This document shows positions 42,767 through 50,447 of a stretch of DNA of 64,000 nucleotides, one piece after another. Each line of letters begins with the position of its first letter. Position 1 is the stretch's first letter. Source of the stretch: Nostoc sp. CENA543 (GTDB lineage Bacteria; Cyanobacteriota; Cyanobacteriia; Cyanobacteriales; Nostocaceae); assembly GCF_002896875.1 (NCBI RefSeq), contig NZ_CP023278.1, forward strand, positions 2,294,001 to 2,358,000, written 5' to 3'. Both the position numbers and the translations under genes were made by a program. The notes below the pieces were generated by a model. The model ran no database searches. It was given only the letters and a program-made list of their open reading frames with translations, and was not told the DNA's origin.

Positions 42767-42946
42767 ATGCACATCGTACAAAAAATTTACTGCCCAAACT
42801 GTGGCAGTGCAGCTGAACGTCACTATATTGCTGATAGCCAATTAACTAGAACCCAATGTCATAGTTGTGATTATTTGATGATCTCTTGCACTAAAACTGG
42901 TCGGGTGGTGGAAGCTTACGCACCAGGAATTCATGCGCGGAGGTAG
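42767..42946 (+). CDS. 59-aa zinc-ribbon miniprotein
   Basis: Short open frame below usual gene-caller length. Product begins MHIVQKIYCPNCGSAAERHY, with CPNC (9-12) and CHSC (31-34) spaced 18 residues apart as a zinc ribbon, and ends RVVEAYAPGIHARR. Very similar short cyanobacterial proteins exist, sometimes misannotated as PriA-related; that is recollection, not a search. The ribosome-binding site is weak (CCGGGGTC). It sits in the convergent gap between uvrC and the WD40 gene. Confidence 0.75.
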   Translation: MHIVQKIYCPNCGSAAERHYIADSQLTRTQCHSCDYLMISCTKTGRVVEAYAPGIHARR

Positions 42947-42964: not shown

Positions 42965-45900
42965 TTAATGATCTTGAGGACACAGAGAGCGATCGCTCTG
43001 GGTTAATTTCGAGTTAGTCTGTAAATAATCGTGGAGAAAATGACAACCACGCGTTAGTAGCTGGGCTAGTTTGAAGTCGTCTAAATTGCGGAAAATCACC
43101 CTACCCTTACCGCTACCGACTGCTAAAATTTTGCCATTGGGACTAAAACTGACGCTGGTTAATTCTTCTTTGTCGCCTTTTAAGGAAATTAATGCTGTTC
43201 CTTCTCTGTTCCACAGCTTGATTTTGTCGTCACTACTGGCGGCTAGAGTCCGACCGTCACGGCTAAAACCGATACTGGTAAAATTGTCGCCATCACCGGA
43301 TAGAGTTTTTAGCAGTTGACCGTCCCGACTCCATATTTTCACAGTGCTATCAATACTGGCGGAAGCTAAAATTTGACTATCAGGCGACCAAGCTACACCA
43401 TTAACTGGGCGTTTATGGTCAGCAAGGTTGTGTAAAAGTTGACCATTTAAATCCCAGAGTTTGACGGTTAAATCATCACTCGCAGAAGCCAATAACTTGC
43501 CGTCTGGGCTGAAACTTACCCAGTTGACTGCATCTGTATGGCCTGTAAGAGTATGAATTAATTTACCCTCTCGACTCCATAATTTTACGGTATTGTCTTT
43601 ACTGGCTGAAGCCAAGACTTGATGATTTGGCGACCACGCTACAGCCCAAACTGCATTGGTGTGACCTTTCAAGGTATGGAGTAATTTACCATCTTGACTC
43701 CATAATTTCACCGTTTTATCTTTACTGGCTGAGGCGATGACTTGACCGTCACCAGACCAAGCTACGCCCCAAACTTGGTCATCATGTTTGGGGAAAGTCC
43801 GCAAAATTTTACCATCACTACTAATAATTTTGACTGTATTGTCACGACTAGCAGCAGCCACCATCCGACCGTCAGGACTAAAACTAATGCTAGTTATCCA
43901 ATCATCTTCGTCGGTTTGGGGGTCACGCTGCAATACATCTTGCCAACGCCACAACTTAATAGTTTTATCGCGACTAGTAGAGACTAAGGTTTTACCGTCA
44001 GGACTGAAACTCACACTATTGACCCAGTTGTTATGTCCTTTGAGTGTCCCTAGTAACACACCTTTTAAACTCCAAAGTTTTAAGCTTTCGTCGGTACTAG
44101 CAGATGCAATAGTTTGAGCATCTTGACTAAAACTGACGCTAGTAATTGCCCCAGTATGACCAGTAATACTTCTGACTAGTTTTCCTTGAAGATTCCAGAG
44201 TTTAATTTTTTGGTCTAAACCACCACTAGCAATCATGTCACCTCTAGGCGACCAAGCTACAGTCAAAATTGCACTGTCGTGACCATTCCAAGTTTGCAGC
44301 AATTGACCGTCACGCTTCCATAGTTTAATAGTTCTGTCAGCACTCACAGAAACTAAAGTTTGACCATCAGGCGACCAAGCTAAACTTTGGACGGCTTGTT
44401 GATGTCCCAAGAAAGCTTTGAGTAACTTACCGTCACGACTCCAAAGTTTGATGCTTTTGTCGGTACTAGCAGAAGCGATCGCTTGTCCGTCTGGGCTAAA
44501 ATTAACACTATTGACTCCCGCCTCATGCCCTAAAATGGTATGCTGCAATTCACCTGTGCGACTCCACAGTTTAATTGTTCCGTCTTGACTAGCAGACGCA
44601 ATTATCTGACCATTGGGACTGAAGCTCACACTATTAACTACCTTATTATGTTGTAAGGAAATAGGTAACATTAAACCATCAGCCCGCCAAAGTTTAACGC
44701 TATTATCTGCACTAGCAGAGACAATTAACGACCCATCAGGACTAAAAACTGCACTATTCACGCCAGAAGTATGTCCCTCTAGGCGGTTATATTCTTTCAC
44801 TCCCACCACAGCTTGATATAGTGCTGTTTGTACCTTTTCTCTGGTGTAAGGATCTACCCAAATCGTGGTTTGTAATTTGCGTCCAGCTTTGATTCCTTCT
44901 TTGAGTGCATCAAGGCCTTTTTGGGATGCAAATAACGCTTCACTAGAAACACTCAGGGTTTTAATTTCACTATCTACGGCGATGATAATGGAAACACTCA
45001 ACCCCAAAATCGCTAACGCCGAAGCCGCCAACGCCATTTTTAAGGAACGATTTAATTTGGCTTCACTGAGTCTTTGTTGTTTTTGACTTTCTACAAGTTG
45101 GGCGGTTAACTCTTTTTCTTTGAGTTCGGCGCGGAGTTGTTCCACTTCTAATTGACTGAGTTCTTCTCGCTTGCGTAACTCGCGCAATTCCGCCAGTAAA
45201 TCTAATCCTTGCTGGGGTTGAGGATCTAAGAGTTTGCTGTTTTGCTTTTTTTGGCGGAGTTCTCGCTTGAGTCGTTCAATTTCGGTTTGACTTTGTTCGA
45301 CTTTTTGACGCAGCTGATTAAGTTGGGCTTGGAGACTAGATTCTTGTTCTTGCAAATAACGAATTAAATCTACTAAATAATCATGAATTAATTGATAGCG
45401 TTCTGGAACATCGGGGAACAATACCACTAATCCAGAACTGACTAAAATATTTAAGACTAATTCTAATTTATCGGCATCTTCCAATTCTGCCAATTCTGTT
45501 GCTAATTCGGCACGGGTTTTAAATGGTCTTTGATTACTTTCATCTGTTAATAAGTATAAAACCAGTAAAGCCGCCCGTTCATTTGTGGGGCCGCAATCTT
45601 TGATCAGTTCTTTGATATACCTTTCAATTAATTTATTTGGTCTGTATTGTTGATATTGGGCGAGAGTTGTAATACCTTCATCTTGTAATTGCGCTCCTGC
45701 CACTTGTAGTTCAATAGGGCGAATTTCTCCGGTGTCTCTGGATAAATCATCAACCAAGGCATTAATTAAAGCTGGTTCTAGATTGGAGTGGGAGCGGGCA
45801 GTGAGTTTTTCAATGATGGCTTTGGCGTATTCAGGAGAAAAATTATTTAATTGATAACGAATCTGTTTATCGAGAATGTTATTATTGATTGCTTCGAGAT

Positions 45901-48064
45901 TTGCTAAATGTTTAAATTCTAGAATTTGGTGTAAATAATCTTCTCTCAAAGACATGATGACTTTGACAAAAGGTATATTCAGACAATCACTGACAAACTG
46001 GTCGAATTGCTGTTTTTGGTGGCGGTCAGTACAGCCAAAGAAAAATTCTTCAAATTGGTCAAATATTAAAACCGTAATGAGATGATTATTCGCATTTTGA
46101 TGTAATTTTTCTAAAATGCTGCTAATAGTCACTGGCGTTTCTGTCACTGGTAAAACTTCTGATGTAATAGCTGCGTCACCTTTGAGTTGCGAAATTGCCA
46201 CCTTTAAAGATTTACCCAATTCTCGCACCCAATCTGTATAAACTTGCAATACTACAGGGACAGCAATTTGATCACCAATGGCGTGATTTTGTAAAGCTGG
46301 AACTAAACCAGCCGTCACAGTAGAACTCTTGCCCACCCCAGAGGGGCCGTGAATCACAATTAATTTTTGGTCTGAACGGCTAATTCTGCCAATTAAGTTA
46401 TTAATATCCCGTTCTCGCCCAGAAGCTGCAATTTCTAAAGCAATACTACTACTACCAGAGGCGGACATTAACGCCGGGTTGGTAGCTTGTCTTTGGGGTT
46501 TAAGACGACCTGCACCAATAAAAGCCCGTAAGCCATATTGTTGTTCGATAGAACGGCGTTTTTGGCGGATGCAATAGGCTTCTAAATAACGCCCGGCTTC
46601 AAAATAGAGCGATCGCAGTTTCCGCAACATCCTAATATAACGATGTGCGTCATATTGGTGCGCGCTATTTTCTAAAGCTGGGGTTAATTCCTGGGTGGCT
46701 TTATCTAGATAGGCTTGGGCTACAGCGTTTTCACCCAATTTTTGTTGGGCTTTAGCTAAGACTAAATAATAAATCTGCGCTAACAGCAGGGGAAATAAAC
46801 AATCATGGGGTATGGTGTCTTGCTGTTGGGCTTCGTCTAACTTGAGTAAGGACACATGGGCTAAAATACTCGCCTGTAACCACCGCGAAGCTTGAACGGC
46901 GACTTGGGCTAAAAAACCATAGTCACAAGCTAACTGAATTTGACTCCCGTAGATTTGATGTAACTCTAGGGAATGTTGGGCGACTTTTTGTAATTCATCC
47001 CATTGTTGCAGATGTTCCAAAACCTCTGCTAGTTGACCGATAAATTCTGCTGCAATATCCGGTCGGCGCGCCAATTCTAAGATTTCTATGCTTTGTTGTA
47101 AAGAAGATTTCGCCTGTTCCCAATATTCACGGTTATCTAGTTGATTTTGTGCCGCTAACCGACAATATGACAAGCCTAGATAAAACAGTAATACACTCTG
47201 TCTTAAAAGTGGGGAAGATGGGGGAGTCGGGCGGGGAAAAGTTGAGATTTCCGCTTCAGTTGGCTTTTCTGTGGATGACTGAGTCACAAGTTTTTGCCAA
47301 ATCAGCAAACTTTGTTGAAAATGATCTAAGGCGGGATGAATGCGATCGCTAATATAATTATCTAAACCAAAAACGAACTTTAAACTGGCGTTTAATTCTG
47401 GTTCTAGGGTAATTCCCCTCTCATGCAATTCACCGATAGCTGAATGTAGTTCGTCGCTATATTCCCACACTTGCGTTAGGGTGGGATAATTTGGGGCGAG
47501 TTTTGCTTGTCGCCGTTGTCCATGTTCGTTGGTTAAGACTTTGGCGAATAAAGCATCGGTTTCTTGACGCAGAAATTCTAATAATTCTGGTGTCGTCATG
47601 GTAAACCGAATCGGTGTCGCCGCCCAACTGGCAAAATCGGGGGCTAAACGCACGACTTTTTGTAGTATTTCCTCATTTACCCAAAAAATCATCGGAAATG
47701 AATGCTGTTTAGGCAATTCATCCCGAATATGATTAATTGACCTGAGTAAATCGTCAATTTCTTCGACGGTTTCTAAACCCAAAACCATCAACGCCGATGG
47801 GGGTTGATTATCTGTCTCTAACTGAAAATGCAAAGCTGAGTAAAGACTTCTGGTGTTTGGGGGTAAAACTACCTTGTGAATGCGCGCCACTCCCACCGCT
47901 AATTTATCTAGTGATTGCAGCACTCGCTCCTGTAACACACGATAATTACAGCAGACTACCACTACAGAAAAGTGACCACAAGATAGGGTAATCGCTCGCC
48001 ATAAACTTTGTAAAGCCTTACCGTTGGCTGTTTTAATATCTACTGGGAATTGTCCTTCAACCAT
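42965..48064 (-). CDS. TPR / STAND-type ATPase / WD40 protein
   Basis: 1699-aa multidomain protein. Residues 1-175 resemble a NTPase fold without a P-loop (SVVVVCCNYRVLQERVL; PMIFWVNEEIL). Residues 180-515 are helical with TPR-like repeats. A STAND-type (nSTAND1-like) ATPase occupies about 545-900: Walker A GPSGVGKSS (573-581), Walker B IFDQFEEFF (667-675). A coiled coil (905-1000) leads to one transmembrane helix (1010-1030), then 14 WD40 repeats (about 1094-1670), enough for two seven-bladed propellers (units such as GHTxxVNSVxFSPDGxxxAS...KLW). The upstream ATPase gene overlaps its start by 25 bp, so the two are translationally coupled. Likely a sensor switch; ligand unknown. Confidence 0.92.
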   Translation of the reverse strand: MVEGQFPVDIKTANGKALQSLWRAITLSCGHFSVVVVCCNYRVLQERVLQSLDKLAVGVARIHKVVLPPNTRSLYSALHFQLETDNQPPSALMVLGLETVEEIDDLLRSINHIRDELPKQHSFPMIFWVNEEILQKVVRLAPDFASWAATPIRFTMTTPELLEFLRQETDALFAKVLTNEHGQRRQAKLAPNYPTLTQVWEYSDELHSAIGELHERGITLEPELNASLKFVFGLDNYISDRIHPALDHFQQSLLIWQKLVTQSSTEKPTEAEISTFPRPTPPSSPLLRQSVLLFYLGLSYCRLAAQNQLDNREYWEQAKSSLQQSIEILELARRPDIAAEFIGQLAEVLEHLQQWDELQKVAQHSLELHQIYGSQIQLACDYGFLAQVAVQASRWLQASILAHVSLLKLDEAQQQDTIPHDCLFPLLLAQIYYLVLAKAQQKLGENAVAQAYLDKATQELTPALENSAHQYDAHRYIRMLRKLRSLYFEAGRYLEAYCIRQKRRSIEQQYGLRAFIGAGRLKPQRQATNPALMSASGSSSIALEIAASGRERDINNLIGRISRSDQKLIVIHGPSGVGKSSTVTAGLVPALQNHAIGDQIAVPVVLQVYTDWVRELGKSLKVAISQLKGDAAITSEVLPVTETPVTISSILEKLHQNANNHLITVLIFDQFEEFFFGCTDRHQKQQFDQFVSDCLNIPFVKVIMSLREDYLHQILEFKHLANLEAINNNILDKQIRYQLNNFSPEYAKAIIEKLTARSHSNLEPALINALVDDLSRDTGEIRPIELQVAGAQLQDEGITTLAQYQQYRPNKLIERYIKELIKDCGPTNERAALLVLYLLTDESNQRPFKTRAELATELAELEDADKLELVLNILVSSGLVVLFPDVPERYQLIHDYLVDLIRYLQEQESSLQAQLNQLRQKVEQSQTEIERLKRELRQKKQNSKLLDPQPQQGLDLLAELRELRKREELSQLEVEQLRAELKEKELTAQLVESQKQQRLSEAKLNRSLKMALAASALAILGLSVSIIIAVDSEIKTLSVSSEALFASQKGLDALKEGIKAGRKLQTTIWVDPYTREKVQTALYQAVVGVKEYNRLEGHTSGVNSAVFSPDGSLIVSASADNSVKLWRADGLMLPISLQHNKVVNSVSFSPNGQIIASASQDGTIKLWSRTGELQHTILGHEAGVNSVNFSPDGQAIASASTDKSIKLWSRDGKLLKAFLGHQQAVQSLAWSPDGQTLVSVSADRTIKLWKRDGQLLQTWNGHDSAILTVAWSPRGDMIASGGLDQKIKLWNLQGKLVRSITGHTGAITSVSFSQDAQTIASASTDESLKLWSLKGVLLGTLKGHNNWVNSVSFSPDGKTLVSTSRDKTIKLWRWQDVLQRDPQTDEDDWITSISFSPDGRMVAAASRDNTVKIISSDGKILRTFPKHDDQVWGVAWSGDGQVIASASKDKTVKLWSQDGKLLHTLKGHTNAVWAVAWSPNHQVLASASKDNTVKLWSREGKLIHTLTGHTDAVNWVSFSPDGKLLASASDDLTVKLWDLNGQLLHNLADHKRPVNGVAWSPDSQILASASIDSTVKIWSRDGQLLKTLSGDGDNFTSIGFSRDGRTLAASSDDKIKLWNREGTALISLKGDKEELTSVSFSPNGKILAVGSGKGRVIFRNLDDFKLAQLLTRGCHFLHDYLQTNSKLTQSDRSLCPQDH

Positions 48065-49371
48065 GACTTAAATTTTGGTGTCTCGGCTAAAACTGGATTG
48101 ACAGCAAACCAAACCCCTTGATGGTCGCGGTATTCAAAGACAAATAAACTACGCAATAAGGTATGGTATTCTATATCTCCCCTAACCCGTTGTTGTTTGA
48201 CCACTTGGAAGATTAACTCCCACTCTTGGCTATCGATAGGGTTAGCGCGGTAGTCTCGTTGTCTTTGAATGACTAACTCGACACATGCTTTTTCAAAGGG
48301 TGGATCTTGTTCTCGCAGACAGTCAAACAGCAACCCCAATAAATCGCGCACATGACCACCACTGATCAGGCACAATCTATCTAGTGTTTCTAAATTATCG
48401 AATACCTCTGTAATTAAGCTTAAGCGATCGCTCGGTTGAATGTCAGGGAAAGCCCTAGCTAAAACCATTTGACGCATCAAATCTAAGCCTTGCTGGAAAA
48501 TCTCCCCAGAACGTAACCTGACGGGAATCATCGGTAATACCTTCGGTGCGACTCCACCACCTAAACGGTGTTGTAGTTCCGCGCTGTCGTTGGAAAAGGT
48601 TAAAGCTAAGGGGATGGTGTAAACTACATGACAATGGAGCTTACGCAATTGTTCACCCCTATCGATAAATAAATATTCTGGCAGCGATCGCCCCGATGGT
48701 AAAGGACGAATGGCGACTCTATCTAAGTTATCGACAATTACAACTAGGCCTTTTTTCCCCTTGGCTTTGAGTTCCTTATCAGCCCGTTCTAAGAGTTCTT
48801 GGTTAATTGATTGCAAAATTCCCTGGGTGCGGGGTTCGAGGTAATCTCGCAAACGGCGACGCAATTGGGGACTTTCTTTTGTTTTGGCGGTAATTTTGGC
48901 AATTCCCACTGATAATTCCGCTTCTACCCCCAAATCAATGGGAGTTTGCAGAAAATCCATCACCTCACTAAATAACTTAGTAAAGTAGTTAGGCTTGAGG
49001 CGGATTTTCATTGCTTCCAGACTTTCGCTCACCTGTCCAGCGATCGCTAGTAAAATATCAGTGACATCCACATCCGCCATTTCTAGGACATGGGTAGACT
49101 CAAAGTACACTACATGAAATTGCGCCTCTTCTAACTCCGCCTTCAAGCGCAATAGTTCCGTAGATTTACCGCAACCCAAGTGTCCTGTAAATAACTGACA
49201 GGTGGGTGAATTGGGAGAAATGCGAGTAATAGTACGCAGCAGTGCTTCAATAATTTTACCGCCCCGCACCGATGCAAAATCAATATAGTATCGGCGATCG
49301 CTGTTATTTCCCATCATCAACGGTCTGCTGGGATTACAAGCCTGATAGAATTTTTCTAAATCTAAGGGCAT
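48040..49371 (-). CDS. P-loop ATPase, partner of the WD40 protein
   Basis: 443-aa AAA-like ATPase. Walker A GHLGCGKST at 63-71, Walker B VIVDNLDR at 211-218, followed by YTIPLALTFS (sensor-1 position). No signal peptide, membrane helix or DNA-binding motif was recognised. The N-terminal part (DLEKFYQACNPSRPL, RRYYIDFASVRGGKII) and FTGHLGCGKSTELLRL are, from memory, typical of a cyanobacterial family found next to large TPR or WD40 genes. Its last 25 bp overlap the WD40 gene start. A palindromic MITE-like element lies 36-174 bp upstream of its ATG. Biochemical role unknown. Confidence 0.88.
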   Translation of the reverse strand: MPLDLEKFYQACNPSRPLMMGNNSDRRYYIDFASVRGGKIIEALLRTITRISPNSPTCQLFTGHLGCGKSTELLRLKAELEEAQFHVVYFESTHVLEMADVDVTDILLAIAGQVSESLEAMKIRLKPNYFTKLFSEVMDFLQTPIDLGVEAELSVGIAKITAKTKESPQLRRRLRDYLEPRTQGILQSINQELLERADKELKAKGKKGLVVIVDNLDRVAIRPLPSGRSLPEYLFIDRGEQLRKLHCHVVYTIPLALTFSNDSAELQHRLGGGVAPKVLPMIPVRLRSGEIFQQGLDLMRQMVLARAFPDIQPSDRLSLITEVFDNLETLDRLCLISGGHVRDLLGLLFDCLREQDPPFEKACVELVIQRQRDYRANPIDSQEWELIFQVVKQQRVRGDIEYHTLLRSLFVFEYRDHQGVWFAVNPVLAETPKFKSWLKDNSQ

Positions 49372-49406
49372 ATTGGGATTTTGGATTTGGGATTTGGGAT
49401 TTTGGA

Positions 49407-49545
49407 TTAGGGGCTTCCAACTAAAAAATATTCCATCTGTAGGGTGCGTCAGCGTGAGAAACCTTCGCTATATCTAGATATTCTTTATACTGACGTACCC
49501 TACGAACAGTCAATTTGGGATAATTTAATTTTTGGAAGTCCCTTA
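49407..49545. mobile_element. MITE-like element with TWAGGGRCTTCCAA ends
   Basis: 139-bp element. Ends TTAGGGGCTTCCAA and (reverse complement) TAAGGGACTTCCAA match at 12 of 14. Inside is a second inverted repeat, GTAGGGTGCGTCAG (49439-49452) against CTGACGTACCCTAC (49490-49503). It carries no gene. A solo end of the same sequence is at 54188-54201. It lies upstream of the ATPase/WD40 operon. Confidence 0.65.
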
Positions 49546-50121: not shown

Positions 50122-50300
50122 CAATTTTTTCGCACTATTTTAGTCTAGACAGTCCACTACACATACTGAGATTTTTTTCAGAAATCAAATCGGATGCCTA
50201 TACTATTATAAATATTAAGAAGATCTCACAAATTAAAATGTACTTAACAGTACCTTTTGAATTTATTTTTCGTGTATTAAATAGTTTAATATCTTAAATT

Positions 50301-50331
50301 AGAACCTCGATTTGACTCAAATCGAGGTTCT
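50301..50331. repeat. 31-bp palindrome
   Basis: AGAACCTCGATTTGA and its exact complement around a single central C. Would form a tight RNA hairpin. It is in the gap before the 69-aa gene, and no T tract is evident. Confidence 0.6.
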
Positions 50332-50447
50332 GAATTTGTTTATAAATAATTTAGAATTCACAGAGAGTCAAACCAGTTAATTTTTCTAGACTGACTGGCT
50401 TTTAGTCAGTGATTGAGCCTCTTAAAAGGAACACAGAGCATGAGAAA

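Follow-up and report, generated by a model that had tools for sequence, protein, structure and literature searches.

The ATPase gene and its partner in the window

Two genes of Nostoc sp. CENA543 are tightly coupled on the minus strand of the 64,000-nucleotide stretch analyzed here, which is referred to as the window. The first, P0002 (48040..49371), encodes a KAP/STAND-like P-loop ATPase of 443 amino acids with no membrane helix. The second, P0001 (42965..48064), is an open reading frame (ORF) of 1699 amino acids, hereafter the partner, whose domains were assigned largely with Pfam. Coordinates and sequence agree in placing a 25-bp overlap of the two reading frames at 48040..48064, and overlaps of 25 or 31 bp are seen repeatedly in orthologous pairs. 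An earlier note on this stretch had given the same two frames and the same overlap, had considered them a defined two-gene module, and had laid its emphasis on the TPR, STAND and WD40 parts of the larger protein. The module holds; the emphasis does not, since the constant element is the ATPase together with a conserved and undescribed domain at the N-terminus of the partner (the N-domain), which the note overlooked. This pair turns up in other genomes far more often than chance would allow.

The ATPase carries a Walker A motif, GHLGCGKS, at residues 63-70 (49162..49185, minus strand) and a Walker B motif, VVIVDNLDR, at residues 210-218 (48718..48744, minus strand), both in invariant columns of the family alignment and within a residue of where they had been noted before (63-71 and 211-218). 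It scores 33.1 bits against the Pfam family KAP_NTPase (PF07693), above the cut-off of 20, and its paralogues score 21.2-25.2 bits. None of 22 members of the ATPase family has a 19-residue window with a hydropathy of 1.8 or more, and no inserted membrane helices are seen. PADLOC models give the window ATPase weak partial matches only, the best being PDC-S20 at 25.4 bits.

The N-domain occupies residues 14-174 of the partner (47543..48025, minus strand) and was delimited from a conserved alignment; it has no Walker A motif. The alignment conserves a G-L-E motif, a helix with N-x-x-R-[DE], an A-P-D-[FL] motif and one tryptophan, and R107, D136 and W140 are invariant in the aligned segment. Four N-domains searched against Pfam gave no match at E 10, whether to STAND, nSTAND2 or any other family. 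Across 29 N-domains, any one NCBIfam model reaches two members at most (best E 0.0048), and PADLOC models give chance matches to single members (best E 0.01). The N-domain profile finds no credible match among PDB sequences (best E 0.87). From its strand pattern, the N-domain was at first taken by eye for a P-loop domain in eroded form; this has no computed support and is left out of our claim.

Behind the N-domain lies a helical region (residues 190-545; 46430..47497, minus strand) that aligns among partners but is weakly TPR-like: the best Pfam match to residues 190-544 is TPR_12 at 25.5 bits, under the cut-off of 30.1. Clear TPRs are found by Pfam in sister partners; for this protein, the TPR-like helices claimed previously are confirmed in part. 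The next domain, a divergent nSTAND1 NTPase domain (residues 549-924; 45293..46420, minus strand), scores 119.9 bits against PF20703, above the cut-off of 27.1, with its Walker A at residues 573-580 and Walker B at 666-673. A coiled-coil-like region at residues ~900-1010 (45035..45367, minus strand) had also been claimed and is judged here by eye. The only strong hydrophobic segment of the partner, a predicted membrane helix at residues 1011-1030 (44975..45034, minus strand; hydropathy 2.52 over 19 residues), separates the STAND domain from the WD40 part, which consists of 14 stretches above the Pfam cut-off at residues ~1095-1664 (43073..44782, minus strand). The STAND-type ATPase, membrane helix and 14 WD40 repeats described earlier are thereby borne out. 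PADLOC returns for the partner a WD40-driven match to HEAT-ARM_XIII and otherwise weak matches. In annotations, giant WD40/TPR proteins of this kind mostly go by the name 'WD40 repeat protein' or 'ribosome assembly protein 4'.

Recurrence and variation of the pair

The earlier note reasoned that homologues usually occurring apart would speak against a module; put to the test, this condition did not arise. When both profiles were run over 16 related genomes and all 59 ATPase and 69 N-domain matches were taken, including fragments and one split gene, an N-domain was found within 2 kb downstream of 54 of the 59 ATPase matches; four of the five unpaired matches are fragments. In the opposite direction, taking N-domain matches whose frames span 250 amino acids or more, 53 of 56 have the ATPase upstream. 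A second set consists of the window and 80 fetched regions, 81 in all, without the ATPase fragments at region ends in L103 and L108. Of its 83 ATPase ORFs that reach 300 amino acids, 79 are followed within 3 kb by an N-domain ORF on the same strand, and 49 of these 79 overlap it. An earlier tally had been limited to the 78 ATPase ORFs that have another ORF on their strand no more than 400 bp away, leaving out L064, L074, L090, L093 and L112. Of 80 named loci, 72 contain an N-domain partner, which in L169 is 3.7 kb away. The locus sets behind these three counts share species, and the counts are therefore not independent. Within Nostoc sp. CENA543 itself, all four ATPase genes are followed by an N-domain ORF, one of them broken: at L077 8148-11852, the partner of the third pair is split into ORFs of 302 and 867 amino acids beside an intact ATPase. 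As a separate observation, the ATPases at L171 8239-10329, L170 7480-10332 and L173 1-2364 have a long additional N-terminal stretch, and their loci contain no N-domain partner.

Tandem loci provide a second line of evidence. Wherever two ATPase genes lie in a row, the partner carries two N-domains (three of three loci: L057, L099 and the Calothrix plasmid L203), and elsewhere in the 81 regions each N-domain ORF has a single one. In L099 and L203 the second ATPase carries a TIR_2 fusion (E 1.2e-31 and 1.5e-33); as these two loci look alike in this respect, the three represent two independent types of arrangement. An EAD-like domain had been suspected behind the TIR of both loci, and Pfam finds none.

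What follows the N-domain varies. Ten partners were scanned with Pfam, five of them represented by their best 25 families: one is nSTAND1-TPR (L097), one is nSTAND1-WD40 with 14 WD40 stretches (L098), one has nSTAND1 without WD40 (L100), and seven have TPRs with no nSTAND1 listed. An architecture of nSTAND1 alone was considered and dropped, as L100 has WD40-like ORFs just downstream and is probably an eroded nSTAND1-WD40 gene. In a tree of the ATPases, a single set of 54 rows unites those with nSTAND1 partners, and those with TPR-only partners fall into two sets (11 and 7 rows) and one long single row; the tree was made by a quick method with a long-branch warning, and label changes on it are rough. 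Motif classes assigned to the partners misfiled at least L098, which makes the class counts of 41, 10 and 23 rough as well. The constant unit is thus the ATPase with the N-domain, and the part that follows may be nSTAND1-WD40, nSTAND1-TPR or TPR alone.

Relatives of P0002 are present in 47 of 59 related genomes, with 1 to 8 copies per positive relative (E 1e-10). The ATPase profile matches at least 67 of 292 genomes sampled evenly across the cyanobacterial phylum, with at most five candidates scored per genome. The 80 named loci are the best 80 of 559 relatives and all bear cyanobacterial titles, and so are uninformative on other phyla. One relative outside the cyanobacteria is a gene on an Acidisarcina plasmid (27 percent identity; family profile 5e-30), which is followed by a TPR gene with no detectable N-domain. 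Matches to the family occur in 8 of 72,556 plasmid records, in no phage record, and in none of 43 candidate viral contigs. On the Acaryochloris conjugative plasmid pREC1, a tyrosine recombinase lies on either side of the pair, and HicAB genes and a NACHT gene are close by. For this plasmid a mobile defence island was not rejected; for most loci it was, many copies having fixed addresses.

Two chromosomal addresses are frequent. By Pfam identity, FtsQ is encoded upstream of the ATPase, in divergent orientation, in 36 of 160 loci (39 loci contain it), and TatC likewise in 35 of 160; a Rieske motif lies near many of the TatC loci. Record titles place the FtsZ address across families of Nostocales and in Microcoleaceae/Trichocoleaceae. 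FtsQ and FtsZ also occur in the TPR-type pair loci L103, L104, L107 and L108, and in G010 and G018, TPR-type and WD40-type pairs lie ~13 kb or less apart. The window copy is at neither the ftsQ nor the tatC address. It is flanked by uvrC and UPF0182, an arrangement common only to L041-L043 among 24 orthologues and found also in L121, and these flanks show it to have moved. It does not lie among recognizable defence genes. Between uvrC and the pair, a 59-codon ORF (42767-42946, plus strand) with two CxxC pairs seen by eye could encode a zinc-ribbon protein. Directly before the ATPase start codon stands a heptamer tandem repeat (consensus TTGGGAT, 5.7 copies, 49373..49412), and the long gap upstream of the gene also holds a 16-bp inverted repeat with a 3-base loop at 50299-50333.

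Selection on the pair was estimated from twelve orthologous pairs as the ratio of nonsynonymous to synonymous substitution rates (dN/dS). Its mean is 0.046 for the ATPase, compared with 0.088-0.136 across the partner's segments, the WD40 part included, when comparisons with dS of 0.02-1.5 are kept (15 to 49 of 66; mean dS ~1.2, near saturation). Selection looks purifying, and nothing suggests a fast-changing sensor.

A proposed signalling unit and its alternatives

Nostoc sp. CENA543 encodes five further giant proteins that align with residues 549-1695 of P0001. Their identity to it is 30 to 35 percent, a large share of it in the WD40 repeats, and residues 1-188 and 190-545 align with none of the five. 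Three of the five sisters (L208, L209 and L212) carry a Peptidase_C14 (caspase-like) domain before nSTAND1 in the same frame, and two of these three match a metacaspase sequence in the PDB at E 0.01. As the chassis aligns and the N-terminus differs, the N-domain and helical region stand in the position of the protease. The nSTAND1 domains of the genome also separate by score: six lie at 364-425 bits and three at 95-124 bits, others being weaker, and the three at 95-124 bits are those of the three ATPase pairs with STAND partners.

Other fusions show the company the ATPase keeps. On plasmid p057_J of Nostoc sp. C057 (L206, 3066-14467), a gene row encodes VMAP-M1/VMAP-C, MoxR and SAV_2336_NTERM, and an ATPase of the family (profile E 1.2e-58) forms the C-terminal end of the SAV_2336_NTERM protein, which would be the vWA component of the row. 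This gene is followed by one for a 164-amino-acid hydrophobic protein and then by one for a HEAT/FGE-sulfatase protein. Together with the TIR fusions of L099 and L203, the SAV_2336_NTERM fusion beside VMAP and MoxR points to the ATPase as a signalling or output module.

We propose that the pair is a two-protein signalling unit, a STAND-type receptor whose N-domain docks an ATPase of its own as relay or output, and we give this reading a probability of about 0.45. What is observed is the anatomy of the two proteins, their conserved pairing, the matching numbers of ATPases and N-domains in tandem loci, and the caspase-bearing sisters; from these we infer physical docking, the direction of the signal, activation by clustering, the role of the ATPase and the membrane topology. 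The large partner would be a membrane-tethered receptor, in which the WD40 propellers may sense and the nSTAND1 domain may act as an NTP switch. The N-domain would dock one copy of the separately encoded ATPase, and assembly of the receptor would bring docked ATPases together for relay or output. The docked ATPase would thus take the place held by the caspase-like domain in the sister receptors.

Several observations weigh against this proposal. Four of the 83 complete ATPases (L064, L072, L090 and L091) have no N-domain nearby, 8 of the 80 named loci have no N-domain partner, two of them ending at a contig end, and the ATPase of L206 likewise comes without an N-domain. Short N-domain frames of 167-204 amino acids have no neighboring ATPase in 12 of 12 cases, spread across 11 of the 16 genomes; one is G000:C1:2804723-2805166 (L008 1456-1953, L215 4691-5188), 11 are similar, and one in G004 has internal stops. 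Such free N-domain proteins may be competitors of the docked form. In the tandem loci, the order of cognate ATPases and N-domains judged by similarity is clear in L057, not in L099, and mixed in L203. A profile comparison of the N-domain with the ATPase finds no kinship (probability 0.2 percent), and a mixed ring of related ATPase and N-domain subunits is therefore without support. Distances among ATPases and among N-domains correlate (r 0.937, n 73, three tandem loci kept out), no better than co-inheritance predicts. Among 50 STAND-bearing partners, r is 0.91 for ATPase and N-domain, 0.886 for ATPase and STAND, and 0.912 for N-domain and STAND; since STAND distances correlate nearly as well, the mirror-tree evidence was judged uninformative.

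Alternatively, the ATPase may be an upstream regulator that acts on the N-domain, by remodelling or by setting a threshold, and so restrains or frees the receptor in the manner of MoxR next to vWA proteins. We regard this as less likely than the docking reading. The ATPase is the most constrained part of the pair by dN/dS, its gene comes first and that of its target second with the frames so often overlapping, and TPR-only partners without STAND still own an ATPase. The TIR-fused ATPase and the C-terminal ATPase of the SAV_2336 protein, however, look more output-like.

A housekeeping role in filamentous cyanobacteria, at division, the septum or the photosynthetic membrane and not in conflict, is somewhat less likely again. 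It would fit the divergent FtsQ and TatC neighbors, the breadth of the FtsZ address, the Rieske motif and the purifying selection that extends to the WD40 part. Yet divergent neighbors need not work together, most sampled cyanobacteria lack the family, copy number varies among positive relatives, copies reside on plasmids, including the one between recombinases with HicAB and NACHT, and the window copy is at neither address. An apoptosis-like or anti-phage role, raised by the earlier note, has no clear support: TIR, caspase and VMAP links exist, but many copies are at the ftsQ-ftsZ or tatC addresses and the window copy is not among defence genes.

The pair could also be a divergent member of the nSTAND2 system, a two-gene operon in which one NTPase is active and the second protein joins a constant domain, an eroded STAND, to modules that vary (Kaur et al. 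2021, PMC8195603, section 15, Fig. 6C). The logic of operon, single active NTPase and constant domain with variable modules is shared, but we consider membership very unlikely. At E 1, nSTAND2 is neither in the complete ATPase match list nor among the best 25 of 66 matches of the partner; a genome search for it was empty, as were its controls. The N-domain matches no STAND family and has no kinship with the ATPase, and neither GT4 nor HEPN occurs in the ten partners scanned, five by their best 25 families. Membership of the window pair is thus not supported by these profile searches. Least probable of all is that the genes are mere neighbors in a co-inherited operon whose products do not act on each other, which would explain the distance correlations but not why the pair keeps appearing across several ATPase lineages, with varied C-termini and surroundings, nor why copy numbers match in tandem loci.

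The pairing points to an undescribed two-protein signalling device in many filamentous cyanobacteria. If the signalling reading is true, the class of giant WD40/TPR proteins gains a partner and a testable mechanism, namely a STAND receptor with a separately encoded ATPase output, and the docking domain joins the known routes from bacterial NLR-like receptors to effectors. Given the ftsQ-ftsZ and tatC positions, a link between such receptors and everyday cell functions could then be tested in a multicellular bacterium. More tentatively, the ATPase and N-domain might be a portable and undescribed relay cassette of bacterial receptors, used as NLRs use caspase and TIR outputs. Long settled by ftsQ-ftsZ and tatC in filamentous cyanobacteria, it could link NLR-like signalling to the state of septum or membrane, and competition from free N-domain proteins could tune it.

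Comparison with known systems

KAP NTPases typically have membrane helices inserted in the P-loop domain. The window ATPase resembles them in scoring above the KAP_NTPase cut-off and differs in that its family lacks such helices. The earlier note could name no characterized system with this architecture, and none turned up in the parts covered of the literature searched, including PMC8195603, PMC7159879, PMC10907252 and PMC5587647; subscription papers fall mostly outside that literature, and an unnamed mention in the supplementary tables of Kaur et al. is possible. The nearest published design, as far as the sections covered extend, is the nSTAND2 system (PMC8195603), whose modules are GT4 and HEPN, whereas those found here are nSTAND1-WD40 and TPR.

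The ternary system of VMAP, MoxR and vWA proteins (2020, PMC7159879) offers a different likeness. Kaur et al. place effectors at the C-terminal end of the vWA protein, and in L206 an ATPase of our family would be in that effector position. The flanks and ORF list of the window show no MoxR, vWA or VMAP, no model scan having been made for them. A further comparison is within the same genome. The caspase-bearing sisters L208, L209 and L212 share with P0001 the nSTAND1 domain, coil, membrane helix and WD40 repeats, aligned over residues 549-1695. They have a caspase-like front and a canonical nSTAND1 (386-425 bits), whereas the window has the N-domain with a separate ATPase and a divergent nSTAND1 (124 bits).

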